From a virus: DNA of 45,791 bases. Below the pieces are notes generated by a model. That model was not told the origin of the DNA and ran no database searches. It saw nothing but the letters and a program-made list of their open reading frames with translations. Shown here one piece after another: positions 1,095 to 45,278 of this stretch (within the stretch, counting starts at the first letter, position 1; the number at the start of each line of letters is the position of its first letter). A program made the translations under genes and the position numbers. The stretch covers positions 1 through 45,791 of the IMG/VR virus record IMGVR_UViG_3300042691_017408; one strand, written 5' to 3'.

Positions 1095-1103
1095 GGCAAC
1101 CTA
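1095..1103 (+). promoter_or_regulatory. Late motif GGCAACCTA, candidate late promoter
   Basis: Exact copy of the repeated 9-mer. Its CTA begins 23 nt before the ATG at 1124, and it sits in the short gap after the LamG-like gene. Confidence 0.6.
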
Positions 1104-1672: not shown

Positions 1673-1697
1673 CCATAGCTTGCCGGGAAAGCTATGG
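1673..1697. promoter_or_regulatory. Perfect 9-bp inverted repeat carrying a minus-strand late motif (1676-1684)
   Basis: CCATAGCTT (1673-1681) and AAGCTATGG (1689-1697) are exact reverse complements around a 7-base spacer. The left arm and spacer read on the minus strand as GGCAAGCTATGG, a late-motif copy serving the gene starting at 1656. The right arm covers an ATG at 1694 of the divergent plus-strand gene. It could be a shared control element for the two divergent genes or an RNA hairpin hiding the 1694 ATG. Confidence 0.55.
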
Positions 1698-3653: not shown

Positions 3654-3662
3654 TAGGTTGCC
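3654..3662 (-). promoter_or_regulatory. Late motif GGCAACCTA, close-spaced version
   Basis: Exact motif copy reading toward 3649. The CTA starts 7 nt before the ATG, unlike the 21-28 nt seen elsewhere. If the motif is a -10-type element, this would give a leaderless message. Confidence 0.5.
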
Positions 3663-18093: not shown

Positions 18094-18422
18094 CCCACCA
18101 CCTCCTGCAGCTGCTTGCGGGCAGCTTCCCAGCGCTCGCGTGGGCTCAGTTGCTGCGGCTTCGGCTCCGGCCTGGTGGGCCTGGGCTGGATCAGCGTGTA
18201 GCGGCCATGGCCAGGGCGGACCTGGTAGATGCCGAGCTCAGCGATGGCGTTGATCCGCCTGCTCACCTGCGACTGCGACAGGTTCCACAGGGCCTTGAGC
18301 AAGGCCACCGGCGCGACGCCGGGTGCGACGCCGAGCTGCTCCAGCTCCAGCAGGTCGAGCAGGGCGCGATCCCTGTTGACGCTGCCGTCGCGGTGGGTGT
18401 TGATGGTGATGGGGGACTTCAT
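18090..18422 (-). CDS. Winged-helix DNA-binding protein
   Basis: A 110-residue protein. Residues about 38-78 (PVALLKALWNLSQSQVSRRI, NAIAELGIYQVRPGHGRYTL) form a winged helix-turn-helix pattern, followed by a Pro-rich and basic tail. It probably regulates early transcription. Overlaps with both neighbours show a coupled operon. Confidence 0.65.
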   Translation of the reverse strand: MKSPITINTHRDGSVNRDRALLDLLELEQLGVAPGVAPVALLKALWNLSQSQVSRRINAIAELGIYQVRPGHGRYTLIQPRPTRPEPKPQQLSPRERWEAARKQLQEVVG

Positions 18423-18634
18423 GCCTGCACCTCATCACGCAACAGCTGCACCACGTCGCTAACGGCCAGATCCGGCCGCTGCTGAAGCAGGGCCTCCAGC
18501 TCATCAGCCAGGTGAATGAACAGGCCGCTGGCGCCACGCAGGGCGCCCTTTCTCTGGTCGGTGGTCAACGGCGCGCCGCGCAACATGGCGTCGCCAAGGG
18601 CAACGGCGCAGCGGTCTAGGAGGGTGCCGCTCAT
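18419..18634 (-). CDS. Small helical hypothetical protein, first gene of the early minus operon
   Basis: A 71-residue protein starting MSGTLLDRCAVALGDAMLRG. Helical, acidic at the C-terminus. ATG 18634 has a clear GGAGGTG Shine-Dalgarno, rare in this genome. A longer frame from ATG 18739 has the A/C-rich leader CACCACCACACACCGC and would add a Pro-rich N-terminus. Divergent from the replication operon. Confidence 0.6.
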   Translation of the reverse strand: MSGTLLDRCAVALGDAMLRGAPLTTDQRKGALRGASGLFIHLADELEALLQQRPDLAVSDVVQLLRDEVQA

Positions 18635-18822
18635 TCCCCCACCTCCAGCCCACGGTGGGTTTTGCAGCAGGACGCCGCCGGTGCCGGCGCTGGGCTGATG
18701 GGCCTCAGGCTCGGCCGGGGGATACCAGGTGCCGGTCATGCGGTGTGTGGTGGTGAATAGGTGCCACCCCACCCGGGCAGTCTCCAGCCAGCCGGGGGGA
18801 GTGGCTCCCCAACCTTACTGGT

Positions 18823-18850
18823 TACGTTTCCAATCCGCAACGGCTATGGT
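18823..18850 (+). promoter_or_regulatory. Early promoter with dyad operator for the replication operon
   Basis: Operator TACGTTTCCAATCCGC at 18823-18838, then 6 bp and TATGGT (18845-18850) as -10 box, then an A/C-rich leader to ATG 18880. It aligns base for base with the site at 22667. The divergent gap also separates the minus operon. Confidence 0.6.
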
Positions 18851-18879
18851 GCAAAGGCGCATCACCCACGCCCGACCAC

Positions 18880-19059
18880 ATGCCGACTGAGACCAGTCCC
18901 GCCGAGGCCTCCCGCGCCTGGAACATCACCGTCCCTGACTACCTGCTGCAACACCTCGACGCACAGGCCCGCCGCCGCTGCTGCAGCCGCTCGGCCTATG
19001 TGCGCTGGCTGGTGCGGCAAGACTTTGAGCGCATCAACCCCGAGGCCGCCAAGGGTTGA
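18880..19059 (+). CDS. 59-residue ribbon-helix-helix-like protein
   Basis: MPTETSPAEASRAWNITVPD then YLLQHLDAQARRRCCSRSAY and VRWLVRQDFERI: one beta strand and two helices, as in CopG/Arc regulators. First gene of the replication operon; its stop overlaps the primase start (TGATG). It may autoregulate or control replication onset. The small size leaves no room for other domains. Confidence 0.65.
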   Translation: MPTETSPAEASRAWNITVPDYLLQHLDAQARRRCCSRSAYVRWLVRQDFERINPEAAKG

Positions 19060-21596
19060 TGCCAGACGCACTCGCTGCAGCCTCTGGCCGGTGGCCGGAG
19101 CTGCTGACCGCGCTCGCCGGTCTGTCCGCCGAGCAGCTGACCGACAAGCACCAGCCCTGCCCCGCCTGTGGTGGCACCGACCGCTACCGCTGGGACCGCA
19201 ACGACGGCCCCGGCGGTTGGTTTTGCAACCAGTGCGGCGGCAAGGACCAGCGCGGCGGCGCCGGCTCTGGCATTGACCTGCTGATGCGGGTCAAGGGCTG
19301 GAGTCTGCCCGATGCCTGCCGCGTCGTTGAGCAGCACCTGGGCCTCGCCGCTCCCAGGCCCGAGCCGCCCACCGCTGGCGCCGAGCACGTCTGGCGCTAC
19401 AGCCTGGACTTCTACGTCTGCCGCTTTCCCGCCAAGCGCATCCGCCCCCTCTGGTGGGATGGCAGCCGCTGGGCATGGAAGGCCCCACCAGCCCCGCGCC
19501 CGCTTTACTGGGCCTCACCGCTGCGGCCTGGTCCCGTGCTGGTGGCCGAGGGGGAGAAGGCCGCTGATGCCGCGGTGCGGCTGTTCCCCACCCATGCCTG
19601 CTGCACCTGGGCCAGCGGTTGCAAGGCGCTCGATAAGTCCAGCTGGCAGCCGCTCGCCGGCCGCGAGGTGCTGCTGTGGCCTGATGCCGACGAGGTGGGC
19701 CGCGAGGCGATGGCCAAGCTCGCCGGCCGCCTGCTCACGCTCGGCTGCAGCGTCACGGTGGTGGACCCGCCCGCCCACCTGCCGGCCGGCTGGGATCTCG
19801 CAGATGCCGGCGACTGGACGCCCTCGCAGGCCGCAGCGGTCGTCCGGCAGTCGGGCCGGAGGCTGGAGCCGCCGGCGGCAGCGGCGGTGGCTGAGCCGGC
19901 GCCTGAGCCGGCGGACGACGAGCCACGCAAGGCGCTGCCCAGTCGTGTGCAGCCAGGGGCGCCGTTCACCTGCCTTGGCTTTGACGGGCCCTCCTACTAC
20001 TACATGCCCCATCGGACCGGGCAGGTCATCTGCATCTCTGGTGCATCGCACAAGGCGGCCACGCTGCTGATGCTCACAGATCTGCCGTACTGGGAGACGC
20101 TCTATCCAGGCTCCCGTGAGTCGGTCAACTGGACATCAGCCATCAGCTCGCTGCTGGCCACGCAGGCCGATGTGGGCGTCTACGACCCCGACCGCGTGAG
20201 AGGCCGTGGCGCATGGATCGACGGGGAAAGCGTCGTCTTCCACCTCGGGGATCGCCTCATCATTGACGGCGCACCTCATCCTGTGCTCAGCGCTCCATCG
20301 ACTGGGTATTTCTACGAGCAGGCCCGCCACCTGGACGGCCCCGGGCCGGAGCCCCTGGGCGATGACGACGCCATGCGGCTCTGCCTCATTGCCGAGCGCT
20401 TCCGCTGGGAGGTGCCGGCATCGGCCAACTTCCTCCTTGGCTGGACTGTCCTGGCGCCCGTCTGCGGAGCCCTGAACTGGCGACCGCACATTTGGGTCAC
20501 TGGTGGCGCCGGCACCGGCAAGACGACCATTCTCAAGACCTTCATGCGGCCCCTGATGGGCGGCGTCCTGCAGACGGCCACCGGCGGCACCACCGAGCCG
20601 GGTCTGCGCGGGATTCTCAAGTCCGACGCCATTCCGGTGGTGTTTGACGAGTTTGAGCAGAACGAAGCCAAGGACAAGCTCATCGTTCAGAACATCCTTG
20701 CGCTGGCGCGGATTGCCTCATCGGAAGGCGGCAAGATTTACAAGGGCACCACCACCGGCGGATCCAACAGCTACGAAATCCGCTCCATGTTTTGCGTGTC
20801 GTCCATTAACGTTTCGCTCATCCAGAAGGCCGACATTGACCGTTTCTGCGTGCTGGGTCTGCGCAAGGACGAGATGGACAAGAACGAATGGCTCGACTTT
20901 GAACAAGAGATCCTGTCCGTCGCCACTGTGTCGAACGGCCGCGCCCTGATCGCTCGCACGCTCACCTACCTGCCCACCATCACCCAGAACGCCCGCGTCC
21001 TGGCGCAGTCGTTGGGTCGCCGCTTTGGCCAGCGCTTTGGCGATCAGCACGGCACCCTGCTGGCTGGCGCCTGGAGCCTGCGTCCAGGTGGGGGCGGCCT
21101 GCTGACGCTGGAGCAGGCCGATCAGTGGATCACCGAAATGGACTGGGACCATCAGCAGCCGGACCCCAGCGAGTCGGACGAGATCAAGTGCCGCGACGTG
21201 ATCCTGCAGCAGATCGTGCGGCAGGGCGCTGCCATTGACGCCAGCTTTGGCGAGATGGTCCGCTGCGTCGCCATGCAGCAGTCGCTGCGGCAGACCGTGT
21301 GGAATGACTTGGTGCCGGTCCTAGGCCGCTACGGGCTGCGGGTGTTCCGCGAGAGCCAGCGCTTGCCGGGCGATGACGCCCCGGTCGCGGCGGTCCACTA
21401 CCTGGCGGTGGCGAACAGCAACGCGCAACTTGATGCCGCCTTGCGCAGCACCCCATGGAGCGGCGGAGCTCATCGAGCGGCCTTACGCCGCATCACCGGG
21501 GCCCTGGTGCCGAACGTCGCGGTTCACTTCGCCGGTGTTGGCACCAAGCGGTGCGTTTTGGTGCCACTGACCGACGCGGACCTGACGGAAACGTAA
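19059..21596 (+). CDS. Primase-helicase (zinc-finger primase, TOPRIM, P-loop ATPase)
   Basis: An 845-residue protein. Residues 34-59 form a CHC2-type zinc finger (CPACGGTDRYRW and CNQCGG). About 165-240 is a TOPRIM part (VLVAEGEKAADAAV, then LLWPDADEVG). The C-terminal half has Walker A GGAGTGKTTILKTF near residue 480 and Walker B PVVFDEFEQNE near 528, resembling SF3/DUF927-type ATPases. It should prime and unwind DNA as the main replication protein. It ends 15 nt before a CTAACG-repeat region that could be its origin. Confidence 0.88.
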   Translation: MPDALAAASGRWPELLTALAGLSAEQLTDKHQPCPACGGTDRYRWDRNDGPGGWFCNQCGGKDQRGGAGSGIDLLMRVKGWSLPDACRVVEQHLGLAAPRPEPPTAGAEHVWRYSLDFYVCRFPAKRIRPLWWDGSRWAWKAPPAPRPLYWASPLRPGPVLVAEGEKAADAAVRLFPTHACCTWASGCKALDKSSWQPLAGREVLLWPDADEVGREAMAKLAGRLLTLGCSVTVVDPPAHLPAGWDLADAGDWTPSQAAAVVRQSGRRLEPPAAAAVAEPAPEPADDEPRKALPSRVQPGAPFTCLGFDGPSYYYMPHRTGQVICISGASHKAATLLMLTDLPYWETLYPGSRESVNWTSAISSLLATQADVGVYDPDRVRGRGAWIDGESVVFHLGDRLIIDGAPHPVLSAPSTGYFYEQARHLDGPGPEPLGDDDAMRLCLIAERFRWEVPASANFLLGWTVLAPVCGALNWRPHIWVTGGAGTGKTTILKTFMRPLMGGVLQTATGGTTEPGLRGILKSDAIPVVFDEFEQNEAKDKLIVQNILALARIASSEGGKIYKGTTTGGSNSYEIRSMFCVSSINVSLIQKADIDRFCVLGLRKDEMDKNEWLDFEQEILSVATVSNGRALIARTLTYLPTITQNARVLAQSLGRRFGQRFGDQHGTLLAGAWSLRPGGGGLLTLEQADQWITEMDWDHQQPDPSESDEIKCRDVILQQIVRQGAAIDASFGEMVRCVAMQQSLRQTVWNDLVPVLGRYGLRVFRESQRLPGDDAPVAAVHYLAVANSNAQLDAALRSTPWSGGAHRAALRRITGALVPNVAVHFAGVGTKRCVLVPLTDADLTET

Positions 21597-23525: not shown

Positions 23526-24877
23526 CCCTGCAGTGGCTGGATCATGCCGGCTGCGTGCTGGTGGCCTCCAGCGGCCCGCAGACCGACATCGACCCCGCCG
23601 AGCTGCTCCAGCGCCTGCTGGCCGACCTGCACCCCGGGCAAGCGGCCTTTGTCACCGACCAGCAGACCGAGATCCTCGGCGTGAGCGCTGGCTATGGCGC
23701 CGGCAAGACCCGGGCACTCTGCGCCAAGGCCGTCAGCCTGGCGCTGGCCAATCAGGGCTTCATCGGCTGCGTCATGGAGCCGACCGGGCCGCTGATCCGC
23801 GACATCTGGCAGAACGACTTTGAGGACTTCCTGGAGGCCTACAGCGTCCCGTACAGCTTCCGCGCCTCACCACTGCCTGAGTACGTCCTGCACCTACCTG
23901 GTGGCGACACGAAGATCCTCTGCCGGTCGTTTGAGAACTGGACCCGGATCATCGGCCTGAACCTGGCCTGGGTGTTGGCCGACGAGATCGACACCGTGGC
24001 TCCGAGCATTGCCGCCAAGGCCTTCCCGAAGATCCTCGGCCGCTTGCGCTCCGGCAACGTGCGCCAGTTCGGTGCGGCATCCACACCCGAGGGCTTCCGG
24101 TGGATGCACGCCACCTTTGCGTCGGATGATGCCCGCAGCAGGACCGACCGCCGCCTCATCAAGATGCGGACGGTGGACAATCCCCACCTGCCGCCGGACT
24201 TCATCGAGCGGCTGCAGGCCAACTACGACCCCAGCCTGCTGCGGGCCTATCTGGATGGGGAGTTCGTCAACCTCACCACCGGCCAGGTCTACGACCGCTT
24301 CAACCGCGAGCATCACGTCATCCCCTGCGACTGGGATGAGCTGGAGGCTGAGACGATCCTGCTCGGCGTGGACTTCAACGTCACCAACATGAGCGGCGTC
24401 CTGGCGGTCCGCCGTGGCCGGGAGCTGCACGTCTTCGACGAGGTGGCCGGCGCACATGACACCGACGCGCTCGCGCAGGAGGTCCGCCGCCGCTACCCGA
24501 AGGCCCGCATCCTCGGCTACCCCGACGCCTCCGGCACTGCTCGCAGCACCAACAGCAGCCGCAGTGATGTGGCCATCCTGCAGAGCTACGACATCAGCAA
24601 CATGGCACCCAAGGCCAACCCGCCGGTGCGCGACCGGGTGGCATCGGTGCAGGCCCTGCTGGAGAACGGCAAGGGTGAGCGCCGGCTGTTCATCGACCCG
24701 CGTTGCCGCCGGCTGATCGAATGCCTGGAGCTGCAGAGCTATGACGAAAAGGGCGAGCCCGACAAGGCCACCGGGCATGACCACATGAACGACGCCCTTG
24801 GCTACATCGTTCACCGCTGCTTCGAGGTGGGCCGCGCCAGTGCTGGGAAGCCTGTGCGCGGCCTCAGGTTGTACTAG
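23522..24877 (+). CDS. terL: Terminase large subunit
   Basis: A 451-residue protein. Walker A GYGAGKTRAL (Lys62), Walker B WVLADEID (Asp154-Glu155), then the RNase H-like nuclease with GVDFNVTNMSG near residue 282, YPDASGTARS and the last acidic site HDHMNDALGY. It translocates and cuts DNA into procapsids at the portal. GTG 23522 overlaps terS. The stop overlaps the convergent basic-protein gene. Confidence 0.9.
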   Translation: MTLQWLDHAGCVLVASSGPQTDIDPAELLQRLLADLHPGQAAFVTDQQTEILGVSAGYGAGKTRALCAKAVSLALANQGFIGCVMEPTGPLIRDIWQNDFEDFLEAYSVPYSFRASPLPEYVLHLPGGDTKILCRSFENWTRIIGLNLAWVLADEIDTVAPSIAAKAFPKILGRLRSGNVRQFGAASTPEGFRWMHATFASDDARSRTDRRLIKMRTVDNPHLPPDFIERLQANYDPSLLRAYLDGEFVNLTTGQVYDRFNREHHVIPCDWDELEAETILLGVDFNVTNMSGVLAVRRGRELHVFDEVAGAHDTDALAQEVRRRYPKARILGYPDASGTARSTNSSRSDVAILQSYDISNMAPKANPPVRDRVASVQALLENGKGERRLFIDPRCRRLIECLELQSYDEKGEPDKATGHDHMNDALGYIVHRCFEVGRASAGKPVRGLRLY

Positions 24878-25371
24878 CGCGACCTGGAGGCCCTGCGGCT
24901 GCTCTCCATCCGCCGCACCTTGGCCTCGGCCTTCTTCACCGTGGCATCCGTCTTGCCGCCGCGATACATCCGCAGCTCACGCGCCTGGCTCTTGGCGGCC
25001 TTGTACTTGCTCTTGGCCGCATTGGCCGGGGCCTTGCTCATCTTCGCCGGCCGTGCTGCAGCCGTGGTCTTTGCGGGCTTGCTGCCGCCGCTGCCGCCGC
25101 TACGGCTGCGCTTGGTGCCGGTGCCGGTCGCTGCATAGAAGTCTCTCGCACGCTGCGCCGTCAGCAGGCTCCTGGTGGCCTTGGTGCCGCCGCCACCCTT
25201 CACCGCAGCCCGCGCCTTGGTCTCGGCCGCTCGCGCCCGGCCCCTGGCAGTCGTGGTCTTCGGTGTGGCCTTGCTGGCGCTCTTCTTCCCGCCACCACCA
25301 CGTCGCCGCGTCTCCCATCCCTTCTTTGCTGCGGCACTCCTGTTGCCACCACCACCCTTACGCCTGGCCAT
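24874..25371 (-). CDS. Lys/Arg-rich histone-like protein A (antisense in the head module)
   Basis: A 165-residue protein, extremely basic and low-complexity (Lys, Arg, Ala, Gly, Ser, Thr). N-terminal RSAAAKKGWETRRRGGGGKK, then KTTTARGRARAAETKARAAV and a Lys/Ala tail resembling histone H1 or HctB-like tails. It is a paralogue of 26910-27713. Transcribed against terL and portal from a GGCAAGCTA motif 24 nt upstream. It may condense DNA or bind RNA during packaging. A structural role in the head is the alternative. Confidence 0.7.
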   Translation of the reverse strand: MARRKGGGGNRSAAAKKGWETRRRGGGGKKSASKATPKTTTARGRARAAETKARAAVKGGGGTKATRSLLTAQRARDFYAATGTGTKRSRSGGSGGSKPAKTTAAARPAKMSKAPANAAKSKYKAAKSQARELRMYRGGKTDATVKKAEAKVRRMESSRRASRSR

Positions 25372-25392: not shown

Positions 25393-25401
25393 TAGCTTGC
25401 C
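25393..25401 (-). promoter_or_regulatory. Late motif GGCAAGCTA toward histone-like protein A
   Basis: CTA begins 24 nt before the ATG at 25371. It is back to back with the plus-strand copy at 25405; the two copies are separated by 3 bp. Confidence 0.65.
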
Positions 25402-25404
25402 CGC

Positions 25405-25413
25405 GGCAACCTA
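25405..25413 (+). promoter_or_regulatory. Late motif GGCAACCTA toward the portal gene
   Basis: CTA begins 24 nt before the GTG at 25435. CTATGGC (25411-25417) and GCCATAG (25422-25428) form a perfect 7-bp inverted repeat right after the motif, so the message would start with a hairpin. Confidence 0.65.
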
Positions 25414-25434: not shown

Positions 25435-26898
25435 GTGTTCACCCCGCACGCTCCGCTCCAGACCAATCCGACCCGTGAGCTGAAGGTCTATGAGCCCGGC
25501 ATTGCGTGGCATCGGCAGGAAACCCGCTGGCGGCTGATTGAGCAGCTGACGAAGGGCACGCTGGGGATGCAGGAGGCGGGCCGGCGCTACCTGCCGCAGG
25601 AGCCCCGGGAGGATGACGACTCCTACGCAGTGCGGCTGGCCGCCAGCATCTGCCCGCCGTACTACCTGCGCTTGGAGCAGATGCTTGCCGGCATGCTGAC
25701 GCGCAAGCCGGTGCGGCTGGACAACGTGCCGGACGTCATCCAAGAGCACCTCTATGACGTCGACCTGATGGGCTCCGGCCTGGATCCCTTCCTGCAGCAC
25801 TTCGCCCGGCTGGTGATCCGCTACGGCCACGCTGGCGTCCTGGTGGACTACCCCCGCGGGGATGAGGGCGACGAGAGCCCGGTCACGGACTTCAGCAGGC
25901 CTTACTGGGTGCCCTACAGCCCCCGCGACATCCTCGGCTGGCGGACCGACGTGGTGAACGGCGCCCAGACCCTGACCCAGCTGCGGCTGCGGGAGGAGGT
26001 GGTGGTGCCCTATGGCCTCTACGGCGAGGAACTGGTGCAGCAGATTCGCGTCCTGACGCCCGGCGCCTACCAGCTGTTCCGCTACCAGCCCAGCCGCTCA
26101 CGGGACTGGGAGCTCATCGCCGACGGCGATACCACGCAAGACGTGATCCCGTTCGCCATCGCCTACGCCAACCGCCTCGGGCAGTTGGAGTCCACCCCGC
26201 CGCTGGAGGAGGTGGCCTGGCTCAACCTGGAGGCCTACCGCTGCCGCAGCGATCAGAGCAACCTGCTGCACGTCGCAGCGACGCCTCGTTACAACCTCTT
26301 CGGCGTGCCGGCCGAGATGGAGGAGATTGAGGCTGGGCCTGGCACCGCCACTGCCTTCCCGTCAGATGCCCGGGCGGAGTTCGCCGAACCCACCGGCACC
26401 AGCTACGAGGCCCGGTTCAAGCAGCTGGACCGGATCCGTGAGGAGATCGCAGAGCTCGGCCTGGCAGCGGTGCTGGGGCAGAACATGACCAACCAGGCCG
26501 CCGAGGCGAAGGCCATCGACCGATCGCAGGGTGATGCCGCGCTGATGGCCGTGGCGATGGGCGTGCAGGATCTGATTGACCAATGCCTGCGCTTCCACGC
26601 CGACTACCTCGGCCTGCCGGAGTCGGGCAGCTGCATGGTGAACAACGACTTCGTGAGCCGCACGCTGGACCCCGCCCATGTGGCGCAGTTGGTGCAGCTG
26701 CGGATCAACGGCGACATCACCCAGGAGACGCTGCTGATCCAGCTGGCGGATGGCGAATGGCTCTACGACGACTTCGACGTTGACGCCGAGATCGAAGCCA
26801 CCGCGCAGCAGCAAGCCCAGGCGCTGGAGGCGCAGCAGCAGCAGCTGGAGGGCAGCCTGGAGGGCCTGCCGGGTGAGCCGGGGCAACCTACGGCCTAA
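25435..26898 (+). CDS. Portal protein (DUF4055 type)
   Basis: A 487-residue protein. The N-terminal half has RYLPQEPREDDDSYAVRLAA and MLAGMLTRKPVRL, then LVIRYGHAGVLVDYPRG and WVPYSPRDILGW. The C-terminal half contains the long helix SYEARFKQLDRIREEIAELG and a Gln-rich end. These match DUF4055 portal proteins. It forms the dodecameric DNA entry ring at one capsid vertex. It follows terL, separated by the antisense basic-protein gene. GTG start with late motif upstream. Confidence 0.85.
   Translation: MFTPHAPLQTNPTRELKVYEPGIAWHRQETRWRLIEQLTKGTLGMQEAGRRYLPQEPREDDDSYAVRLAASICPPYYLRLEQMLAGMLTRKPVRLDNVPDVIQEHLYDVDLMGSGLDPFLQHFARLVIRYGHAGVLVDYPRGDEGDESPVTDFSRPYWVPYSPRDILGWRTDVVNGAQTLTQLRLREEVVVPYGLYGEELVQQIRVLTPGAYQLFRYQPSRSRDWELIADGDTTQDVIPFAIAYANRLGQLESTPPLEEVAWLNLEAYRCRSDQSNLLHVAATPRYNLFGVPAEMEEIEAGPGTATAFPSDARAEFAEPTGTSYEARFKQLDRIREEIAELGLAAVLGQNMTNQAAEAKAIDRSQGDAALMAVAMGVQDLIDQCLRFHADYLGLPESGSCMVNNDFVSRTLDPAHVAQLVQLRINGDITQETLLIQLADGEWLYDDFDVDAEIEATAQQQAQALEAQQQQLEGSLEGLPGEPGQPTA
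26882..26890 (+). promoter_or_regulatory. Late motif GGCAACCTA toward histone-like protein B
   Basis: Inside the last codons of the portal gene. CTA begins 22 nt before the ATG at 26910. Confidence 0.6.
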
Positions 26899-26909: not shown

Positions 26910-27713
26910 ATGGCGCGGAAGGGCGGGCGCAAGGGTGGCAGCAGCGCGGCAAGAAGCGCAGCTGCCAAGAAGGGCTGGGAGACGCGTCGCCGCGGTGGCG
27001 CCAAGAGCAAGCCACCGGCCAAGGGCCTGCCCAAGACCACCACGGCACGGGGCCGCGCGCGCACTGCTGAGACCCGCGCACGCTCTGCCCTCAAGGCCGG
27101 CGGCGGCACCAGGGCAGCCCGCAGCCTGGCGGTCGCTCAACGTGCCAGGGACTGGTACAAGGCCACCGGCAGTGGCACGCGCCGCAGCGCCACGAAGCCC
27201 CGCAGCGGGATCCGCCGCACTGGTGGGCTGCCCAGACCGGTGGCGGGCAATGCTGTCAGGCGCACTGCGGTAGGTGGGCGCCGACCACTCGGGATGCAAG
27301 GCAACAGCATCAGGCCCATCAAGCGAGGCAGGCCCAAGGATCTGCGCACCCGGCTGGGTGATGTGCGCACGGCAGCCGATGGCATGAAGACCCGCCTCGC
27401 CCGCCAATCCGCCCGCGACATTGCCGGCCGGCTCCGCAAGGGCATTGACGGCGAGCTGTCCAGCATCGTCCTGCAGAATCAGGGCGGTCGGCTCAACCGC
27501 CGCGGCGCCGATGTGATCCGCCGCCGGGCCGCTCGAGCGTCTGCTGCTGCAGCGCGAGGCAGCAAGCCGGCTGCCAGGGCCCGGGAGATCTACGGGCAGC
27601 AGCTGGCCTTCACCGGCTCCGGCAAGCCGAGCCGCAAGGCTAAGAGCGGCATCAGGCCCGGCCCACGCAACACCAAAGGCACCCCGCCCAAGCGCCGCAA
27701 GCGGAAGGGCTGA
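26910..27713 (+). CDS. Lys/Arg-rich histone-like protein B
   Basis: A 267-residue protein, very basic throughout. Its first about 95 residues align with protein A: SAAAKKGWETRRRGG, KTTTARGRARTAETRARSAL, AQRARDWYKATGSGTRRS. A second part (RPKDLRTRLGDVRTAADGMK, RLARQSARDIAGRLRKGIDG) is more ordered and helical, and the C-terminus is again Lys/Arg/Pro-rich. It lies between portal and scaffold, so a head-internal DNA-binding or morphogenesis role is likely. No known head protein family was recognised. Confidence 0.7.
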   Translation: MARKGGRKGGSSAARSAAAKKGWETRRRGGAKSKPPAKGLPKTTTARGRARTAETRARSALKAGGGTRAARSLAVAQRARDWYKATGSGTRRSATKPRSGIRRTGGLPRPVAGNAVRRTAVGGRRPLGMQGNSIRPIKRGRPKDLRTRLGDVRTAADGMKTRLARQSARDIAGRLRKGIDGELSSIVLQNQGGRLNRRGADVIRRRAARASAAAARGSKPAARAREIYGQQLAFTGSGKPSRKAKSGIRPGPRNTKGTPPKRRKRKG

Positions 27714-27717
27714 CGCC

Positions 27718-27726
27718 GGCAACCTA
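27718..27726 (+). promoter_or_regulatory. Late motif GGCAACCTA toward the scaffold gene
   Basis: CTA begins 28 nt before the ATG at 27752. It lies 5 nt past the stop of the basic-protein gene. Confidence 0.6.
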
Positions 27727-27751: not shown

Positions 27752-28450
27752 ATGTCTGATGCTCCTGTGGAGCCCATCGCTCCCACCACGCCCGAGACCG
27801 CTGCAACCGATGCCGGCGCCCTGCAGCGCGAGATTGAGGCCCTCCGGCGGAAGAATGCCGAGATCCTCGACGAGAAGAAGAAGCTCGCCGCCAAGCTGAG
27901 CGACCTGCCGGAAGGCGCCGACGTGCGCGAGCTGCTGGCCTTCAAGCAGCAGACCGAACAGCAGCGCCTGGAGGCAGAGGGCAACTACGCCGAGGCCCGC
28001 CGACAGCTGGAGGCCCAGTTCCGCGACCGTGAGGCACAGCTGCAGCAGCGCATTGACGCCCTTGAGGCAGAGGTCAAGGAACTCCGTATCATCGGCCCTG
28101 CTGTCGCCGCGCTCGCTGATGCCGTCCATGACCCGGATGAGGTGATCCGGCTGCGGCTCAAGGCTGATCAGATCGACCGGGAACCCGATGGCACCGTGGT
28201 GGTGGTGGACGGCTACGCACGCACGCCGATCCTCGACTGGGCAAAGTCCAGCCTCCCCCAGTACAGGCTCAAGGCGCCGAAGCCCTCGGGCTCTGGTGCG
28301 CCTGTGGGCCGCTCTGGTGGTGATGTGCCGGCAGGGATGAAGAACCCCTGGCAGCGCGATACGTTCAACCTCACCGAGCAGGCCCGGCTGATGCGCAATG
28401 ACCCGGAACTGGCAGCCAAATTGCGGGAGGCCGCGCGAGGTGCGGCATAA
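27752..28450 (+). CDS. Scaffolding protein
   Basis: A 232-residue protein. A long acidic coiled coil (about 20-115, e.g. LQREIEALRRKNAEILDEKK) is followed by a short beta part and the C-terminal WQRDTFNLTEQARLMRNDPE, then LAAKLREAA, a helix known from phage scaffolds that binds the capsid protein. It lies directly before the major capsid gene. It should guide procapsid assembly and be lost on maturation. Confidence 0.8.
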   Translation: MSDAPVEPIAPTTPETAATDAGALQREIEALRRKNAEILDEKKKLAAKLSDLPEGADVRELLAFKQQTEQQRLEAEGNYAEARRQLEAQFRDREAQLQQRIDALEAEVKELRIIGPAVAALADAVHDPDEVIRLRLKADQIDREPDGTVVVVDGYARTPILDWAKSSLPQYRLKAPKPSGSGAPVGRSGGDVPAGMKNPWQRDTFNLTEQARLMRNDPELAAKLREAARGAA

Positions 28451-30001: not shown

Positions 30002-30165
30002 TGAGCCTGTTCGCCAATCGCTGGCGGACACTGCGGGAGGCTGCCTCTTCGGAGGTGGCCTCTTCCGCTATGGAGCCGCAACAGGAGCCGCAGCCGGCGC
30101 CCACACGCAAGGCCGGCAAGCTACCCCAACGCCTACAGCTGCAGCAGGATGAGCTACGCGCCTGA
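30001..30165 (+). CDS. 54-residue head-region protein
   Basis: MSLFANRWRTLREAASSEVA then a Gln/Pro-rich, basic tail (EPQQEPQPAPTRKAGKLPQR). The ATG overlaps the previous stop (TGATG) and the end overlaps the next gene by 17 nt. Disordered-looking. Possibly a small accessory of the head. Function unknown. Confidence 0.55.
   Translation: MSLFANRWRTLREAASSEVASSAMEPQQEPQPAPTRKAGKLPQRLQLQQDELRA
30115..30123 (+). promoter_or_regulatory. Late motif GGCAAGCTA toward 30149
   Basis: Lies within the small gene ending at 30165. CTA begins 28 nt before the ATG at 30149. Confidence 0.5.
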
Positions 30166-30382
30166 GTTCAGCAATTTCCGCTACATCAGCGGCACCGATA
30201 CCATCACCGGCCGCTTTGTCGCCCTGCTGGCGCTGGAGGCCACGGTGCTCAACACCGCGACCGTGTGCAGCAGCAGCCCCGACAGCCTGGCCAGCATGCC
30301 AATCCCGGCCGGCACGATGGTCACGGGCCTGTTCACCACCGTCAAGCTGACCAGCGGCAAGGTGCTGGCCTACGTCTCCTGA
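30149..30382 (+). CDS. Small structural protein, 77 aa
   Basis: MSYAPEFSNFRYISGTDTIT then GRFVALLALEATVLNTATVC and a beta-rich end. The ITGRFVALLALE segment recurs, to my recollection, in small cyanophage head or fibre proteins. Placed between capsid and minor head genes. Role uncertain. Confidence 0.6.
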   Translation: MSYAPEFSNFRYISGTDTITGRFVALLALEATVLNTATVCSSSPDSLASMPIPAGTMVTGLFTTVKLTSGKVLAYVS

Positions 30383-30385
30383 TAG

Positions 30386-31417
30386 GTGGCAGACCTTTCT
30401 GCCCAGGTTGAGGCATTCCTGAGGAATGCGCTGCGGCAGAAGAAGCTGGAAGACCGGCTCGTCGGCCAGGCGCTGCGGGATCTGCGGCGGACGCTGGTGG
30501 CGATCGAGCGGGTCGTGGGGCAGAGCGGCGTGCTCAGCGTCGGCCCGCAGCGTGAGCAGGCCATCGCCCGGGTGACAGCAGCGGTGGCCCGAAGCGTGCA
30601 GGAGTCGTTCGGCGTGCCGCAGCTGGCGGCCATGCAAGAGGCGCTGCGGCCGTTCGTTGAGCAGCAGATGGAGTTCGCCCGCCGGATGGTGGACATGGCC
30701 GGCGGCAGCCTGAGCCAGCCGGCGGCAGTTATGACGCCCATGCAGGCGTCGCGCATGGTCAACCAGGCCGTGGTGGCCGGCAAGACGCTGGAAGCCCAGC
30801 TCGGCGCCAGCCTGCCGGCGCTGGTGGCCGATCGGGTTGAGCGGTTCATCCGGCTGGGGCTGAGTGATGCCGCTGGCGAGACGGTCGCCACCTACCAGGA
30901 CGCCGTGGTCCGGGTGACCGAGCGCAACGTCGAGGCCCTCATCCGCACCGGCGTGCATGAGGTCGGCAGCCAGGCGCAGAGCCTCATCTACGAGTTCGAG
31001 ACAGACCCCGACTGGCTCGGCGCCGATGGGCTGGTGTGGACCGCGGTGCTTGACAGCCGGGCCTGCCCCGTGTGCCTGGGCCTTGACGGCCGCCGCTACC
31101 AGATTGGCACCCCGGCGGCCTACTTCGACGGTCGCAACAAGGTGAGCCCGCACCCCCAGTGCCGCTGCTACCTCGTCCCGTGGAAGTGGCGCAACGAGGA
31201 CATGCAGGGGCCGGATGGTCCTGAGCCCACCAGGCGGGAGGCCAAGGGTGACAACGGAGCCGAGGCATTGAGCTTCCGCAGGGCCGCCAAGCGATGGGTG
31301 AGGGACAACCCGGAGACGGCGCAGCAGATCTTCGGGAAGAAGCTCGGGCAGGACCTGGTGGACGGCAAGGTCAGCTTCGACCAGGCCATCAAGCGCTGGC
31401 GGCAACCTAAGGCCTGA
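30386..31417 (+). CDS. Minor head protein (phage Mu F-like)
   Basis: A 343-residue protein. A long helical N-terminus leads to the Mu F-type C-terminal module: TERNVEALIRTGVHEVGSQA, WTAVLDSRACPVCLGLDG, then SPHPQCRCYLVP. The Cys/His residues may bind metal. Such proteins connect portal and capsid and may enter the cell with the DNA. GTG 30386 starts 3 nt after the previous stop. Confidence 0.85.
   Translation: MADLSAQVEAFLRNALRQKKLEDRLVGQALRDLRRTLVAIERVVGQSGVLSVGPQREQAIARVTAAVARSVQESFGVPQLAAMQEALRPFVEQQMEFARRMVDMAGGSLSQPAAVMTPMQASRMVNQAVVAGKTLEAQLGASLPALVADRVERFIRLGLSDAAGETVATYQDAVVRVTERNVEALIRTGVHEVGSQAQSLIYEFETDPDWLGADGLVWTAVLDSRACPVCLGLDGRRYQIGTPAAYFDGRNKVSPHPQCRCYLVPWKWRNEDMQGPDGPEPTRREAKGDNGAEALSFRRAAKRWVRDNPETAQQIFGKKLGQDLVDGKVSFDQAIKRWRQPKA
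31401..31409 (+). promoter_or_regulatory. Late motif GGCAACCTA toward 31428
   Basis: In the last codons of the minor head gene. CTA begins 21 nt before the ATG at 31428. A bulged inverted repeat (AAGGCC..GGCTT) follows. It is the nearest late motif upstream of the sigma-like gene. Confidence 0.6.
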
Positions 31418-31427: not shown

Positions 31428-31985
31428 ATGCCTGTAACCGTCACCGCCACTGTCGGGGCCACCAACGCCAACAGCTACATCACCGTGGCGACCGGCAATG
31501 ACCTGGCCGATGTCTACCTCGGCACGCTGGCATGGAGCTCTGCCAGCACCGACAACCGAGGCCGGGCGCTGATCATGGCGACCCGCTACCTCGATGAGCT
31601 GGACTGGATCGGCAGCCGCGCAAGCGCCGCCCAGGCGCTGGCCTGGCCGCGCACCGAGGCCAAGTGCGGTGAATGGGACTTCGCCAGCAATGCGATCCCG
31701 CAACCGATCAAACAGGCCACGTTCGATCTGGCCGAGGCCCTGCTGGCATCGCCTGCCCTGCTGGGTGGCACCGGGGCCGGCAATGCAGAGCTGATCCCCG
31801 GCATTCCGAACGCCAGCCTGCGCAGCGCCAGCGTGGATGTGATCAGCGTTCAGTTCAAGGATGGCGCGGTGCCGAACAGCAGGAACGCCCTGAACGTGCT
31901 GCCGCATCTTCGGCAGGTGCTCGGCTGCTTGTGCCTGAGCGCTCCGGTCGGCGCTGGTGGGTCGGTTCGCATCCTCAGGCGGTAA
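31428..31985 (+). CDS. Head-tail connector (DnaT-like/head completion) protein
   Basis: A 185-residue protein. The pattern ANSYITVATGNDLADVYLG, RALIMATRYLDELDWIGSRA, AQALAWPRTEAKCGEW, then IPQPIKQATFDLAEALL matches phage proteins often labelled DnaT-like, which act as head completion or adaptor proteins. It lies between the minor head protein and tail tube genes, as expected. Confidence 0.75.
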   Translation: MPVTVTATVGATNANSYITVATGNDLADVYLGTLAWSSASTDNRGRALIMATRYLDELDWIGSRASAAQALAWPRTEAKCGEWDFASNAIPQPIKQATFDLAEALLASPALLGGTGAGNAELIPGIPNASLRSASVDVISVQFKDGAVPNSRNALNVLPHLRQVLGCLCLSAPVGAGGSVRILRR

Positions 31986-31999
31986 CGTTTGGAAATGGC
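31984..31999. promoter_or_regulatory. Dyad operator over the sigma-like gene start
   Basis: AACGTTTGGAAATGGC contains the ATG at 31995 in the same register as the VRR-NUC site (14506-14521). It is the only clear operator copy inside the late region. Confidence 0.5.
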
Positions 32000-32558
32000 A
32001 CCGCTCACGCTGCAGCTTGCACTCTTTGCGGAGCCGGAACGGCCCGAGGCGCGCTGCACGTCGCATCTGGCGGAGCCCTTCACCCGCGAAGAGCGACGCC
32101 GCTACGGGCGGATGTATGCCGACAATGTGCGACTGGTGCGCAAGTTCGCCGCACGCCTCCGGCAGCAATACGGCCACTGCCTGACGCCGGAAGACATCAA
32201 CAGCTGCGCTGATCTGGCCTTCCTCAAGGCGTGCCGGGCCTGGAAGCCGGAGAAAGGCGCCCTGTCCACCATCTACTGGCAGTTCGCCCGCGGGGAGGTG
32301 CTGCACTACCTGCGCAGCAACAACTGGGGCATCAGCGCCACACACAAGGCCCGCTCACTCGGCACCGCTGCTCGGCGGCTCCTGGATGCCGGCATGGATC
32401 CGGTAGAGGTGTGCCGGGAGCTGAGCATCAGCGCTGACGACCTGCGCGATGCGCTGGTGGCCACTGCAGGCATCTCGCATGACGTGATGGGCTTCGATCT
32501 ACACGTCTGCCAGCGGCCGACACCGTGGGAGGTGCTGGAGGCAGCAGAGGCAACCTAA
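31995..32558 (+). CDS. Phage sigma factor-like protein (region 2 present, region 4 not seen)
   Basis: A 187-residue protein. Residues about 42-115 read like sigma-70 region 2: NVRLVRKFAARLRQQ, TPEDINSCADLAFLKACRAW, PEKGALSTIYWQFARGEVLH, YLRSNN. A second helical part (GTAARRLLDAGMDPVEVCRE, SISADDLRDALVAT) may correspond to region 3. No -35-binding region 4 follows. It should direct host RNA polymerase to phage promoters, and GGCAASCTA is the obvious candidate target. It lies unexpectedly inside the head-tail operon, with an operator across its start codon. Start ATG 31995; TTG 31989 is the alternative. Confidence 0.7.
   Translation: MAPLTLQLALFAEPERPEARCTSHLAEPFTREERRRYGRMYADNVRLVRKFAARLRQQYGHCLTPEDINSCADLAFLKACRAWKPEKGALSTIYWQFARGEVLHYLRSNNWGISATHKARSLGTAARRLLDAGMDPVEVCRELSISADDLRDALVATAGISHDVMGFDLHVCQRPTPWEVLEAAEAT
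32549..32557 (+). promoter_or_regulatory. Late motif GGCAACCTA toward the tail tube gene
   Basis: Overlaps the end of the sigma-like gene. CTA begins 25 nt before the ATG at 32580. Confidence 0.6.
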
Positions 32559-32579: not shown

Positions 32580-33044
32580 ATGGGCTACTTCAACGCCCTC
32601 GGCTACAGGTTCTGGGTCAAGAAAGGCACCACTGCCAGCGCTGTGCCGACCACCAGCACCGGCCTGGTGGAAGTGCTCAGCCTCACCAATGCCGGCATCC
32701 AGGCGCAGTCCGACACGCAGGACGTGCTGGACTACAGCAGCACCCTCGGCTACAAGACCAGCCTCGTTACCGGGCAGAGCTACACCATCCCGATGGCCAT
32801 GAACCTGGACCTGAAGGACTCGGGCTACAAGGAACTCCGCGACGCTGCCGACAAGGCAGCCACTGGCGTCACCGTGCAGTGGTACCGCGAGAGCCCCGAG
32901 ATGGACGCCTCCGGCAACCCCGAGACCGTGGCCGGCGTGGCCTTCGTGACCAACTTCCAGGAGGACATCCAGGCCGGCAACGTGGCCACTGTCAGCTTCA
33001 CCCTGACCGGCTACGGCGCCCCGACCTGGACGGCTGAGACCTGA
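32580..33044 (+). CDS. Major tail tube protein
   Basis: A 154-residue protein starting MGYFNALGYRFWVKKGTTAS. Beta-rich, with NLDLKDSGYKELRDAADKAA, VQWYRESPEMDASGN and an end TVSFTLTGYGAPTW, the pattern of tail tube subunits (lambda V/HK97 type). It has its own late motif and a terminator directly after it, which fits high-level production. Hexameric rings of it would build the tail tube. Confidence 0.8.
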   Translation: MGYFNALGYRFWVKKGTTASAVPTTSTGLVEVLSLTNAGIQAQSDTQDVLDYSSTLGYKTSLVTGQSYTIPMAMNLDLKDSGYKELRDAADKAATGVTVQWYRESPEMDASGNPETVAGVAFVTNFQEDIQAGNVATVSFTLTGYGAPTWTAET

Positions 33045-33104: not shown

Positions 33105-33548
33105 TCACAGCCGGTTCTGCCCCAGCCGGCGCCATTCGCGGATGAAGAACTCGTTCAGCGGGTGCTTGTCCAAGGCGGGCTTGATCCAGTTGCGGGCCGG
33201 CATCGCCTTGCCGGTGCTGGTGGTGTAGCCGGTGAGGATGATCCCGGCATACATGAAGCCCCGATCGCTCTTGGCGTCCCAGGTGAATCGCAGCGTCGTG
33301 GCGTCGGGGTAGTCGCGGCGTTGCGAGCGCAGGAAGTTGCCGGTATCCACGATGTCGCGGGGGCTGCCCACGGTGCTGCCATTGCGCCGGCGCGTCTGCC
33401 CAGGCCAGCTGAACTGCACGGCCTGGATCTCCTGTTTGAGCTGCTCGCCCAACACATCCCCATAGGCTCGGATGATGGTGGGGATGCGCAGTTTCAACTG
33501 CGTGGCATTCCAGCCCTTCAGCTCCAGCCGTGCCTGGATCTCAGCCAT
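33105..33548 (-). CDS. Tail completion/gp10-like protein on the minus strand
   Basis: A 147-residue protein. Helical start (IPTIIRAYGDVLGEQLKQEI), then a beta part (FTWDAKSDRGFMYAGIILTG) and a C-terminal helix with WIKPALDKHPLNEFFIREWR, resembling HK97 gp10-type tail completion proteins. Such genes normally lie on the same strand between connector and tail tube; here the gene is inverted together with its upstream partner. Confidence 0.65.
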   Translation of the reverse strand: MAEIQARLELKGWNATQLKLRIPTIIRAYGDVLGEQLKQEIQAVQFSWPGQTRRRNGSTVGSPRDIVDTGNFLRSQRRDYPDATTLRFTWDAKSDRGFMYAGIILTGYTTSTGKAMPARNWIKPALDKHPLNEFFIREWRRLGQNRL

Positions 33549-33936
33549 CGGCGTAGGTGGCGAGGCGGATCCGATCGCCCAGGATGGTCTGCAGCGTGCC
33601 GCCGAGCAGGCCCGTGCTGCCGTAGGGGTAGCGCTCCTGCAGCACCTCGCATCGAATGGCCGGCTGGCCAGCGAATGCGACCGTGCCGGTCACGCCCGGC
33701 CGGATGCGTGCATCAAGGGCCTGGGGGCTGATGGCATAGCCCTCAAAGGTGATGGTGTCGGTGTCCACGCCCGGGAAGCCCTGCCCCGAGCGGCTGCCTT
33801 GCCTCAGGTACAGCGTCACCGTGACCGCTTCAGTCTGCGGCAGGACGTTGCCCGTATCCGGGTCGGTGGTGGTGCCCACGGTGGCCAAGGTGAACGTGGC
33901 CGAGGCATTGGCCAGGGCAGCGAGTGCGCTTGTCAT
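33541..33936 (-). CDS. Head closure-like protein on the minus strand
   Basis: A 131-residue beta-rich protein (ATFTLATVGTTTDPDTGNVL, AVTVTLYLRQGS, DRIRLATYADG) consistent with phage head-closure or stopper proteins. It overlaps the tail completion gene by 8 nt. A degenerate late motif (CCGGAAAACTAGG) lies 7 nt before its ATG, back to back with the tape-measure motif. Confidence 0.6.
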   Translation of the reverse strand: MTSALAALANASATFTLATVGTTTDPDTGNVLPQTEAVTVTLYLRQGSRSGQGFPGVDTDTITFEGYAISPQALDARIRPGVTGTVAFAGQPAIRCEVLQERYPYGSTGLLGGTLQTILGDRIRLATYADG

Positions 33937-33953
33937 GCCCTAGTTTTCCGGCC

Positions 33954-33962
33954 GGCAAGCTA
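33954..33962 (+). promoter_or_regulatory. Late motif GGCAAGCTA toward the tape measure gene
   Basis: CTA begins 21 nt before the GTG at 33981. GCCACT..AGTGGC forms a 6-bp inverted repeat just after the motif. Confidence 0.65.
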
Positions 33963-36374: not shown

Positions 36375-37117
36375 CCGCCATCGTCACTATCGGCACGTTC
36401 ACCACCTCGCGGCTGACGGCGCAACCGTTCGGCTACGAGGGGACCGCACGCTCTGGCCTCACCGCTCGCACCTTCCGCATCGCCGGCCTACTCACCGCTG
36501 CCGAGTGGGCAACGCTCATCGGCGTCTACAACACCTGGCGCGACACCCGCATCACCGACGCCGACACCCTGCAGTCCGGCGTTGTCGGCACCACCGTCAG
36601 CCTCACGCTCGCCAGCATCAACGGCCTCAGCGTCTCGAGCCTCGCCTGCTGGTTTGCAGACCCGCCCAGCGGCGACCAGGTCGGCGCCTATGTGCAGGCC
36701 ACCGTGACGCTGGTGGATGCAGCCCAGGCCCTGGCGGTGGTCCTGCGCGAGCGGGAGAAGACCAAGGACGCCGACAAGCCCAACCTCGGCACCGTGACGC
36801 TGGGCTCGGCGGTGGTGACGCTCACCCGGCCGATGGAGACCCGCCGTGATGGCCCATCCGTGGCGCTCACCGCTGCCGGCACTAGCTACATCACCGGGCC
36901 ACTCAAGGCGCACAAGATCCGGCAGATCGAAGGCTGGATCAGCTCGGGAACCTACGAGAACCTGCTCTCCTGGTGGGACACCACCATCAGCAGCGTGCCG
37001 GCCGTGGGCAGCTGGTTCCCAGTGTCCGAGCCGGATGTCACCGTCGAGATCGATGTCTCCGGTGGCGTCAAGACGACCCGTTACAACGTCAGCCTCACGG
37101 CGCTGCAGATCCTCTGA
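36371..37117 (+). CDS. Distal tail-like protein
   Basis: A 248-residue protein of repeated beta strands (LTARTFRIAGLLTAAEWATL, SYITGPLKAHKIRQIEGWIS, GVKTTRYNVSLTALQIL). It lies between the tape measure and the hub gene and overlaps both (ATGA and TGATG), the usual position of the distal tail protein that joins tube and tip. Assignment rests on position and beta character. Confidence 0.65.
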   Translation: MTAIVTIGTFTTSRLTAQPFGYEGTARSGLTARTFRIAGLLTAAEWATLIGVYNTWRDTRITDADTLQSGVVGTTVSLTLASINGLSVSSLACWFADPPSGDQVGAYVQATVTLVDAAQALAVVLREREKTKDADKPNLGTVTLGSAVVTLTRPMETRRDGPSVALTAAGTSYITGPLKAHKIRQIEGWISSGTYENLLSWWDTTISSVPAVGSWFPVSEPDVTVEIDVSGGVKTTRYNVSLTALQIL

Positions 37118-40355: not shown

Positions 40356-40364
40356 GGCAACCTA
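40356..40364 (+). promoter_or_regulatory. Late motif GGCAACCTA toward 40386
   Basis: CTA begins 24 nt before the GTG at 40386. CTAGG..CCTAG forms a short inverted repeat from the motif onward. Confidence 0.6.
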
Positions 40365-40385: not shown

Positions 40386-40817
40386 GTGCCTGTTTCGATC
40401 AGCCTCTACAACCACACCGCGAAGCTGTTTGCGGAGGGGAGCAACGCGGTGGCGGACACCTATAAGGTGCGCCTGATGTCGGCCGCCACCTTCAACGCCA
40501 CACACACCACCCTGGCAGCCACCGGCGGCACCGAGGTCGCCAACGGCAACGGCTACACCACCGGCGGCGCCACGCTCTCGGGTGTGACCGTCACCACCAC
40601 GACCACGAACGACGCCACGTTCGACGCCAACGATGTCACCTGGTCCGCCTCTGGTGGCAGCATCACTGCCGTCGCAGCGATCCTCTACAACGACAGCGAC
40701 ACCAACGACCCGCCGCTGGCGTTCATCAACTTCGACGCGACCGAGACAGCCGGCGATGGGACGGACTTCAAGCTGACTTGGAACGCCTCCGGCATCTTCT
40801 CCTTCACGGTGGCCTGA
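40386..40817 (+). CDS. Tail-tip structural protein, 143 aa
   Basis: A beta-rich, Thr-rich protein (MPVSISLYNHTAKLFAEGSN, KVRLMSAATF..THTTLAA, ILYNDSDTNDPPLAFINFDA). I know this arrangement from small phage proteins next to tail-fibre genes whose role is unassigned. GTG start with a late motif. Confidence 0.65.
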   Translation: MPVSISLYNHTAKLFAEGSNAVADTYKVRLMSAATFNATHTTLAATGGTEVANGNGYTTGGATLSGVTVTTTTTNDATFDANDVTWSASGGSITAVAAILYNDSDTNDPPLAFINFDATETAGDGTDFKLTWNASGIFSFTVA

Positions 40818-43500: not shown

Positions 43501-44030
43501 GGGCGGTGGTGCTCAAGGCCCACCAGGAGCTGCAGCAGATCCAGCGCGAAGCCGCAGCAGTGGCAGAGCTGCCGATCGCGCAGCTCACGGCACTGATGGC
43601 CAACATCAACCGCGACCCGAAGCAGGGCAAGCCGTTCAGCACCGAGCAGTTCTGCTTCTACCGCGAAGCGCCCGAGCCCGAGGGCCTGTCACCCGAGACC
43701 GCTGCTGTGGCGCTGGCCTTGCGGCATGAGGGCCGGTGCCCGCCGCTGGTGATCGCCGCCTGGCCGCAGGTGCTGGAGGCTGCCACCGAGGCCACCAGGC
43801 TGCCGGAGGTGCGGGCGCTGGTCAGCGATGACGAGGCGGTCTGGGTGCTGGCGCCACGGTGGGAAGCCGGCAACATCCGGGGCGGTCTGGTGGCGGTCCG
43901 AGGCCGCCATGCTGGAGAGATGGAACTCCACGAGCTGGACCGGCCCCTGATCCGCCATCGCCTCAGGCTGCCCGACCGGCCGGGCTTCGGCTGGCTGGAG
44001 GCGGACCTGCTGCTGGTGGCGGCAAGCTAG
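43389..44030 (+). CDS. Frameshift extension of the chaperone-like protein
   Basis: The -1 frame is open from 43389 to the stop at 44030 and begins AAGQWKAPRADWQAIFWRLC then HGYPGAFRRDTFGREL, protein-like from its first residues. An ATG/GTG inside (GTG 43506) could also start a separate 174-residue protein. The C-terminal part (EQFCFYREAPEPEGLSPETA, LVIAAWPQVLEAATEATRLP) has no family I recognise. Fusion by frameshift is the better explanation for the sequence quality before 43506. Confidence 0.65.
   Translation, partial: AAAGQWKAPRADWQAIFWRLCHGYPGAFRRDTFGRELRAVVLKAHQELQQIQREAAAVAELPIAQLTALMANINRDPKQGKPFSTEQFCFYREAPEPEGLSPETAAVALALRHEGRCPPLVIAAWPQVLEAATEATRLPEVRALVSDDEAVWVLAPRWEAGNIRGGLVAVRGRHAGEMELHELDRPLIRHRLRLPDRPGFGWLEADLLLVAAS
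44021..44029 (+). promoter_or_regulatory. Late motif GGCAAGCTA, close-spaced version
   Basis: CTA begins 8 nt before the ATG at 44035, like the copy at 3654-3662. AGGGG may also serve as a Shine-Dalgarno here. Confidence 0.4.
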
Positions 44031-44034: not shown

Positions 44035-44514
44035 ATGAACCTGCGAGACCTCAGGACAGCACTGGAAGCGACGCTGGTGGACGTGCTCGGCACCTACCGG
44101 CTGCCGAATGGTGCCACCACGCCGTCCATCGCGGTGCGGGCCTGGGGCGAGGGCTTCCCGGCGGGCACGACGGTCGAAGGGCTGGAGTGCATCATCATTC
44201 GCGACCCCGAGCCGGTTGAGCTGGTCCAGTATCAGCAGCAGGTGGCCTTTCACAAGTGGACCCTGTTCCTGGTGGACTGGGGCGGCAATGAGTCGCTGCA
44301 GGACATCGCCGGCCGGTTGCTGTGGGCATGGCCTGGCAGCAATGCGGTCCCGGTGACGGTGCCGCGTGGTGTCGGGCCACGGGCGCAGATGCGGGTGGAG
44401 CTGCAGACCAACCCGGACTTCAACCCGGCGGTGCTGGAGGTCTCCGCCCTGCTGCTTGAGACCGGCGGGCGGCTGCTGCTTGAGGCCGGCGACTATCTAC
44501 TGCTGGAGGTTTGA
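44035..44514 (+). CDS. Tail protein with strand-repeat end, 159 aa
   Basis: [20 protein letters not shown] opens an alpha-beta part with [13 protein letters not shown] and [16 protein letters not shown]. It closes with LLLETGG and LLLEAGD repeats, short strand-turn repeats typical of phage structural ends. It is followed with overlap by the collagen-like fibre. Possibly the fibre attachment protein. Role inferred from position. Confidence 0.6.
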
Positions 44515-45278
44515 TGGCGAATCAGAAGCTCACTGACCTGACAGCAGCGACGACACCGCTGACAGGGACTGAGGTGGTGTATCTGGTGCAGGGCGGCGTC
44601 AGCAAGCGCACGACCGTCTCGGCACTTGGCGCCACCGGCCCGCAGGGCCCGGCAGGACCGACAGGCCCACAGGGTCCGGCAGGGCCAACGGGCGCGACCG
44701 GCCCCGCTGGAGCCACGGGCGCCACTGGCGCAACCGGCCCGGCTGGTCCGCAGGGACCGCAAGGCGACCCAGGCCCGACCGGCCCGACCGGCCCCGAGGG
44801 CCCGCAAGGCCCCGCCGGCAGCAATGCCACCGCCACGCCCCTCAGCGACGCCACACCCCAGGCGCCCGGCACAGCAGCAGCTGGCACGGCCACCAGCGCA
44901 GCGCGTGGGGATCACGTTCACCCGTTGCCAGGGGTGGCGACCACCAGCGCGGCGGGGCTGATGCCGGCGTCCAGCTTCGCGGCGATCACCTACGCAGCAG
45001 ACGTTGAGCTGGACATGGCGGCCTTGGATGGGCAGGTGCGGACGATCAGCCTCACCGGCAATCTGTCGCTCACCAGCATCAACCGGGCGGCAGGGCGATC
45101 GGTGACGCTGCGGCTCATCGCTGACAGCACTCAGCGGACGCTCACATTCCCGAGCGGCTGGGTGTTCGTTGGCACCAAACCGGCGAACATTGCCGCATCG
45201 AAGACCGGCGTTCTGTCGCTGACATTTTTCGGCACGGCCAGCACTGATGCCGTTGCTGCTTGGGGGGTGCAGGCATGA
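44514..45278 (+). CDS. Collagen-like tail fibre protein
   Basis: A 254-residue protein. The N-terminal 40 residues ([20 protein letters not shown]) resemble fibre attachment parts. About residues 40-103 are Gly-X-Y triplets ([10 protein letters not shown] type) that would form a collagen-like triple helix. GDHVHPLPG and a beta-rich C-terminal domain ([20 protein letters not shown]) follow. A trimeric side or tip fibre is likely. ATG 44514 overlaps the previous stop (TGATG). Confidence 0.85.

Follow-up and report, generated by a model that had tools for sequence, protein, structure and literature searches.

A small sigma factor without region 4 accompanies a probable one-block promoter motif in cyanosiphoviruses

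Which promoters could be served by a small sigma-like protein that is encoded among head and tail genes and lacks the -35-reading region 4? The question is raised by a 187-aa ORF in the viral record IMGVR_UViG_3300042691_017408, positions 1 to 45,791 of which were analyzed as a whole and are called the window. The window (45.8 kb, 66% G+C) has a 70-bp terminal direct repeat, and the ORF is preceded by the gene for the head-tail adaptor Ad1 (31428-31985) and followed by that for the major tail protein (32580-33044). The major head protein was closest to those of the Synechococcus phages S-H1 and KBS-S-2A, and the primase/helicase was closest to its S-H1 counterpart; from these resemblances the host is probably a cyanobacterium. 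The window also contains genes for an integrase with a resolvase/invertase-like part (3793-5118), a RecT-like protein (12196-13086) and an SSB (11729-12166), which suggests a temperate phage.

Domain content of the small sigma factor

The initial annotation had recognized sigma region 2, but no region 4, in this ORF. The peptides on which it relied, LVRKFA, PEKGALST and ARGEVLHYLR, were all found in the protein, and the profile and structure comparisons that it proposed bore out both points. Pfam Sigma70_r2 matched residues 40-111 (E 2.2e-5, 24.6 bits; gathering score 24), and PHROGs 351 and 36098, both annotated 'RNA polymerase sigma factor', matched at 1.9e-9 and 5.4e-9. When a profile of seven sigmas was compared with PDB chains, RpoH (E 3.6e-5) and FliA were matched over region 2 plus the next domain, with region 4 outside the match. 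AlphaFold models (pLDDT 67.7, then mean 76.3 with 29 sequences) showed a region-2 bundle followed by three sigma3-like helices (residues 117-131, 136-142 and 147-156). The best 50 Foldseek matches listed per model were all sigma factors or sigma-containing RNAP models and included SigE sigma2 at TM 0.75-0.80; none of the matches listed reached E 0.001, because the sigma model was only moderately confident (mean pLDDT 76).

No region 4 model matched this sigma or the family members tested, and only about 30 aa are left after the sigma3-like helices in the model. A single sigma query found nothing among viral contigs; relatives were retrieved with MCP and alignment queries. The 46 distinct environmental homologues have the same architecture and the same end point before any region 4, two of them (L039 and L089) being cut by the contig end. 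The protein is a sigma factor composed of region 2 and a sigma3-like domain with region 4 absent; region 2 homology places it in the sigma-70 family, although not among full-length members, which have region 4. The sigma3-like domain and the clamp-binding-type tail described below go beyond the initial annotation. That annotation had also placed an early operator over the start codon. The text TTGGAAATGG is indeed present at 31989-31998, but it was kept in only 1 of 84 relatives and was rejected as a conserved element. Coordinates are listed in Table 1.

Table 1. Sigma gene, its domains and the predicted one-block promoters of the window (bits, PWM score; nt, distance to the start codon)
Feature	Position	Strand	Details
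Small phage sigma gene	31995..32558	+	ATG 31995, stop at 32558; Pfam, PHROGs, 46 distinct environmental homologues, Foldseek
QLALF, residues 7-11, QLxLF match	32013..32027	+	Low-confidence N-terminal tail
Sigma region 2 codons, residues 38-111	32106..32327	+	Pfam, PHROGs, model
Three sigma3-like helices, residues 117-158	32343..32468	+	RpoH/FliA profile match, model helices
Promoter	1095..1103	+	21.4 bits, 29 nt from ATG
Divergent promoter	1676..1684	-	15.8 bits, 28 nt
Divergent promoter GGAAAGCTA	1686..1694	+	14.5 bits, 29 nt
Promoter, possibly leaderless	3654..3662	-	18.5 bits, 13 nt from ATG
Divergent promoter, gene 24874-25371 (-)	25393..25401	-	16.7 bits, 30 nt
Promoter, portal	25405..25413	+	21.0 bits, 30 nt from start codon
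Promoter, gene 26910-27713	26882..26890	+	18.9 bits, 28 nt
Promoter, gene 27752-28450 (between portal and major head protein)	27718..27726	+	16.0 bits, 34 nt
Promoter, gene 30149-30382	30115..30123	+	16.8 bits, 34 nt; kept in relatives
Promoter, Ad1 and sigma	31401..31409	+	19.5 bits, 27 nt from ATG 31428
Promoter in sigma 3' end, major tail protein	32549..32557	+	19.5 bits, 31 nt from ATG 32580; diverged form GGAAACCTA in relatives
Divergent promoter GGAAAACTA, gene 33541-33936 (-)	33941..33949	-	14.6 bits, ATG 13 nt
Promoter, tape measure	33954..33962	+	19.0 bits, 27 nt
Candidate promoter GGGAACCTA	36946..36954	+	15.7 bits, 27 nt from GTG
Promoter, gene 40386-40817	40356..40364	+	22.2 bits, 30 nt
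Promoter, gene 44035-44514, probably leaderless	44021..44029	+	17.1 bits, 14 nt

A one-block motif and its association with the sigma

GGCAASCTA occurred 14 times in the window against 0.35 copies expected, a number reached by none of 100 shuffles. GGMAASYTA was present in every locus of more than 9 kb that carries the sigma gene, with 2-9 copies on the sigma strand where about 0-0.6 were expected. Most sites preceded a start codon by 27-35 nt, with a mode of 28-30 nt, and the distance was 20-39 nt for 77% of the sites compared to 16% of random positions. The sigma gene itself is downstream of such a motif, as had been claimed; a copy about 500-600 nt upstream was found in 64 of 74 relatives. 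An alignment of 150 dereplicated sites, gathered with the pattern so that bases inside the motif were fixed by construction and the flanks were free, showed no conserved block or information at -35. In these flanks C was preferred just before the motif and G..CAAAA was enriched downstream.

A second class of sites has an ATG 13-14 nt from the motif start. In seven relatives it is represented by the minus-strand gene next to the tape measure gene, in one relative (L006) by Ad1, and in the window by two further sites. By their spacing these genes look leaderless, in which case the first transcribed base would be roughly the 14th of the site. Three divergent pairs were present in the window (1676-1694, 25393-25413 and 33941-33962), and both the leaderless spacing and these pairs fit a DNA promoter. 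A T7-type RNA polymerase gave no match in the window in a search whose positive control equally gave no match.

The link between motif and sigma was evaluated in cultured cyanophages by an annotation-free test, in which about 3,000 spaced patterns were ranked at 26-34 nt from ORF starts. The general form GG.A..CTA ranked first in the window, S-CRES3, S-CBS2 and P-SS2, although in P-SS2 its rank was 27 with the first 50 kb alone and 1 with the remaining late region added. The small sigmas of these three phages are about 25-32% identical to that of the window (tblastn to P-SS2, 2e-7), and a profile search reached the P-SS2/S-CBS2/S-CRES sigma type at 3.3e-16, 1.3e-10 and 5.9e-9, placing the window protein by homology among the cyanosiphovirus small sigmas of P-SS2 ORF003 type. 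In contrast, 0-1 sites at 26-34 nt were found in S-CBS3, S-CBS4, S-H1, KBS-S-2A and MED4-184, which are without the small sigma. Of these, S-H1, KBS-S-2A and MED4-184 share the major head protein of the window (35-43%), and S-CBS3 and KBS-S-2A have larger sigma genes of RpoD type. The association (4/4 vs 0/5 genomes; Fisher p ~0.008, ignoring relatedness) involves positive genomes that are not fully independent, because the sigmas of S-CBS2 and S-CRES3 share 83% identity. These results support the conclusion that the GG.A..CTA promoter set accompanies the small sigma across genomes, in agreement with the link drawn in the initial annotation. A search of genome contigs gave as its only match a 5.85-kb contig (L097) in a Planctomycetia MAG, which encodes a 34% identical sigma, carries seven GG.A..CTA sites and is possibly a misbinned virus.

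Several other readings of the motif were weighed. Conserved motifs before phage genes can be regulator sites, and that the sigma recognizes this one directly is something we infer; the motif might be an operator or activator box through which another phage regulator recruits host sigma-A, the small sigma having its role elsewhere. We think this improbable, since the motif follows the small sigma from one cultured phage to another, has a strict orientation with enrichment of an initiator-like C-A on its downstream side, and leaves no space for a separate -10 at 13-14 nt from leaderless ATGs. That the host sigma reads the motif as one of its ordinary promoter elements is very improbable: forms such as GG-TATACT-A in S-CBS2 do resemble a -10 hexamer, but GGCAASCTA is a poor -10, and cyanosiphoviruses that lack the small sigma either do not have the pattern or show no enrichment of it, among them S-CBS3 and S-CBS4, whose hosts are Synechococcus CB strains. 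A translation or processing signal acting in the mRNA would account for the fixed distance to start codons; given the leaderless 13-14 nt class and the overlapping divergent copies on opposite strands, however, it is scarcely credible.

Clamp-binding-type motif of the sigma tail

The N-terminal tail of the sigma, of low confidence in the model and otherwise variable in sequence, carries a motif of the type Q[L/M]x[L/F][F/L] (QLALF, QLSLF, QLDLF etc.) in 46 of 47 distinct sigmas. Among the 61 window proteins, the sigma was the only one with a QLxLF-type motif at a terminus, in this case the N-terminus. QLxLF is the bacterial beta-clamp-binding consensus (PMC4549789), making the host clamp a candidate partner. 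A PF00712 search found no sliding-clamp gene in the window, and tethering would therefore need the clamp of the host. The sequence suggests that the sigma is tethered to the host beta sliding clamp through this N-terminal peptide.

The position of the peptide differs between clades, being N-terminal in one and C-terminal in another: QGSLF forms the C-terminus of the sigma in both S-CRES1 and S-CRES3. The annotated 206-aa sigma of S-CBS2 (L091) is apparently frameshifted relative to that of S-CRES3 at ~33450-33565, and the other frame encodes ...LQGSLF after the apparent frameshift. A possible, if rather doubtful, alternative is that the sigma reads the one-block promoter while QLxLF serves something other than clamp binding, such as an RNAP flap contact. 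The motif is N-terminal rather than C-terminal, no recognizable clamp motif was found in the sigmas of P-SS2 and one relative (L088), and the lack of a clamp gene in the window points the same way. Clamp binding is favoured by the near-universal retention of the motif in so variable a tail and by the independent C-terminal QGSLF of the S-CRES sigmas.

Proposed mechanism and comparison with known phage sigmas

Taken as a whole, the reading of this protein as a late sigma with extended -10-type one-block promoters and a probable host-clamp tether appears quite likely. Sigma2 and the sigma3-like domain would direct host core RNA polymerase to GGMAASYTA, a single extended -10-type element ahead of virion genes; no -35 box would be needed because the sigma has no sigma4. 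In known sigmas, sigma3 reads extended -10 elements, just upstream of the -10 block. Here a sigma3-like domain is present, and the GG of the motif stands just upstream of a -10-like block. Transcription would probably start about 5 nt past the element, at a C/A step. As the sigma gene is behind its own promoter type, late expression would be self-amplifying, and QLxLF is probably what anchors the holoenzyme to the beta clamp of the host, which would couple late transcription to phage DNA replication, as with T4 gp55.

The best reading is a functionally T4 gp55-like late sigma that would act as an extended -10 reader. T4 gp55 is a phage sigma without region 4 that uses one-element promoters (PMC7892883) and has a C-terminal clamp-binding motif (PMC2988020, PMC7892883). 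As in the T4 gp55/gp45 system, a small sigma2 protein without sigma4 is found with -10-like one-block late promoters lacking a -35, the functional mark of a T4-type late sigma, and the predicted clamp-binding-type motif is on a flexible tail. The window system differs from that of T4 in its motif GG.A..CTA and in the bacterial QLxLF at the N-terminus, and no gp33-like partner was identified. Homology to the gp55 family was not found as judged by profile and Foldseek rather than by direct alignment: the seven-sigma profile gave no gp55 match against PDB chains, and gp55 was absent among the 50 Foldseek matches listed. phiEco32 gp36 likewise has no region-4 homology and a single-element promoter, tAATGTAtA (PMC8948821). 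By its published description, its middle/late promoters resemble those predicted in the window, starting 6-8 bp downstream of the element, whereas the window element is GG.A..CTA. The late sigma gp47 of phage 7-11 has a -10 ending in CTA but, unlike the window sigma, possesses region 4 and a bipartite promoter (PMC8948821). Also among the closest systems are P-SS2 ORF003, S-CBS2 gp77 and the sigmas of S-CRES1-3 (cyanosiphovirus group 3), with GG.A..CTA ahead of late genes; their genes follow terL, whereas that of the window follows Ad1, their C-terminal tails are longer and the middle bases of their promoters differ.

The initial annotation considered a phage sigma with its own promoter set in a cyanophage to be new, which was too strong. 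Sigma genes of P-SS2, S-CBS2 and other cyanosiphoviruses were already published (PMC2784084, PMC10452541), so a first sigma in a cyanophage cannot be claimed, and T4 gp55 and phiEco32 gp36 are precedents for region-4-less sigmas with one-element promoters. P-SS2 promoters had been predicted only as sigma-70 type (PMC2784084), and a literature search covering few subscription papers found no promoter set or clamp motif reported for cyanosiphovirus sigmas. The small sigmas of P-SS2, S-CBS2 and S-CRES3 had been annotated without a known target; the present analysis proposes a specific promoter code for the late genes of the cyanosiphoviruses, these cultured phages among them. The mechanisms of replication-coupled late transcription in T4 have been called unique to T4 and its relatives, or different from those of other bacterial systems (PMC2988020). 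Should the clamp motif prove functional, the cyanosiphovirus sigmas would be an independent parallel using the host clamp. We are evenly divided on whether a non-T4 lineage did evolve such coupling, with a sigma bearing a bacterial clamp peptide and the host clamp activating one-block promoters.

Some further features were observed. The related phage S-H1 (L098), without the small sigma, has an annotated DNA polymerase III beta subunit at 18187-19236. GGxGND-type repeats and Gly-rich collagen-like repeats are encoded in the window at 6434-7084 (-) and 44628-44821, respectively. TTGGAAAC was present at 8566, 14511, 18833(-), 21858 and 22677(-), at gene starts or in intergenic positions of the early region, where it is possibly a regulator site.
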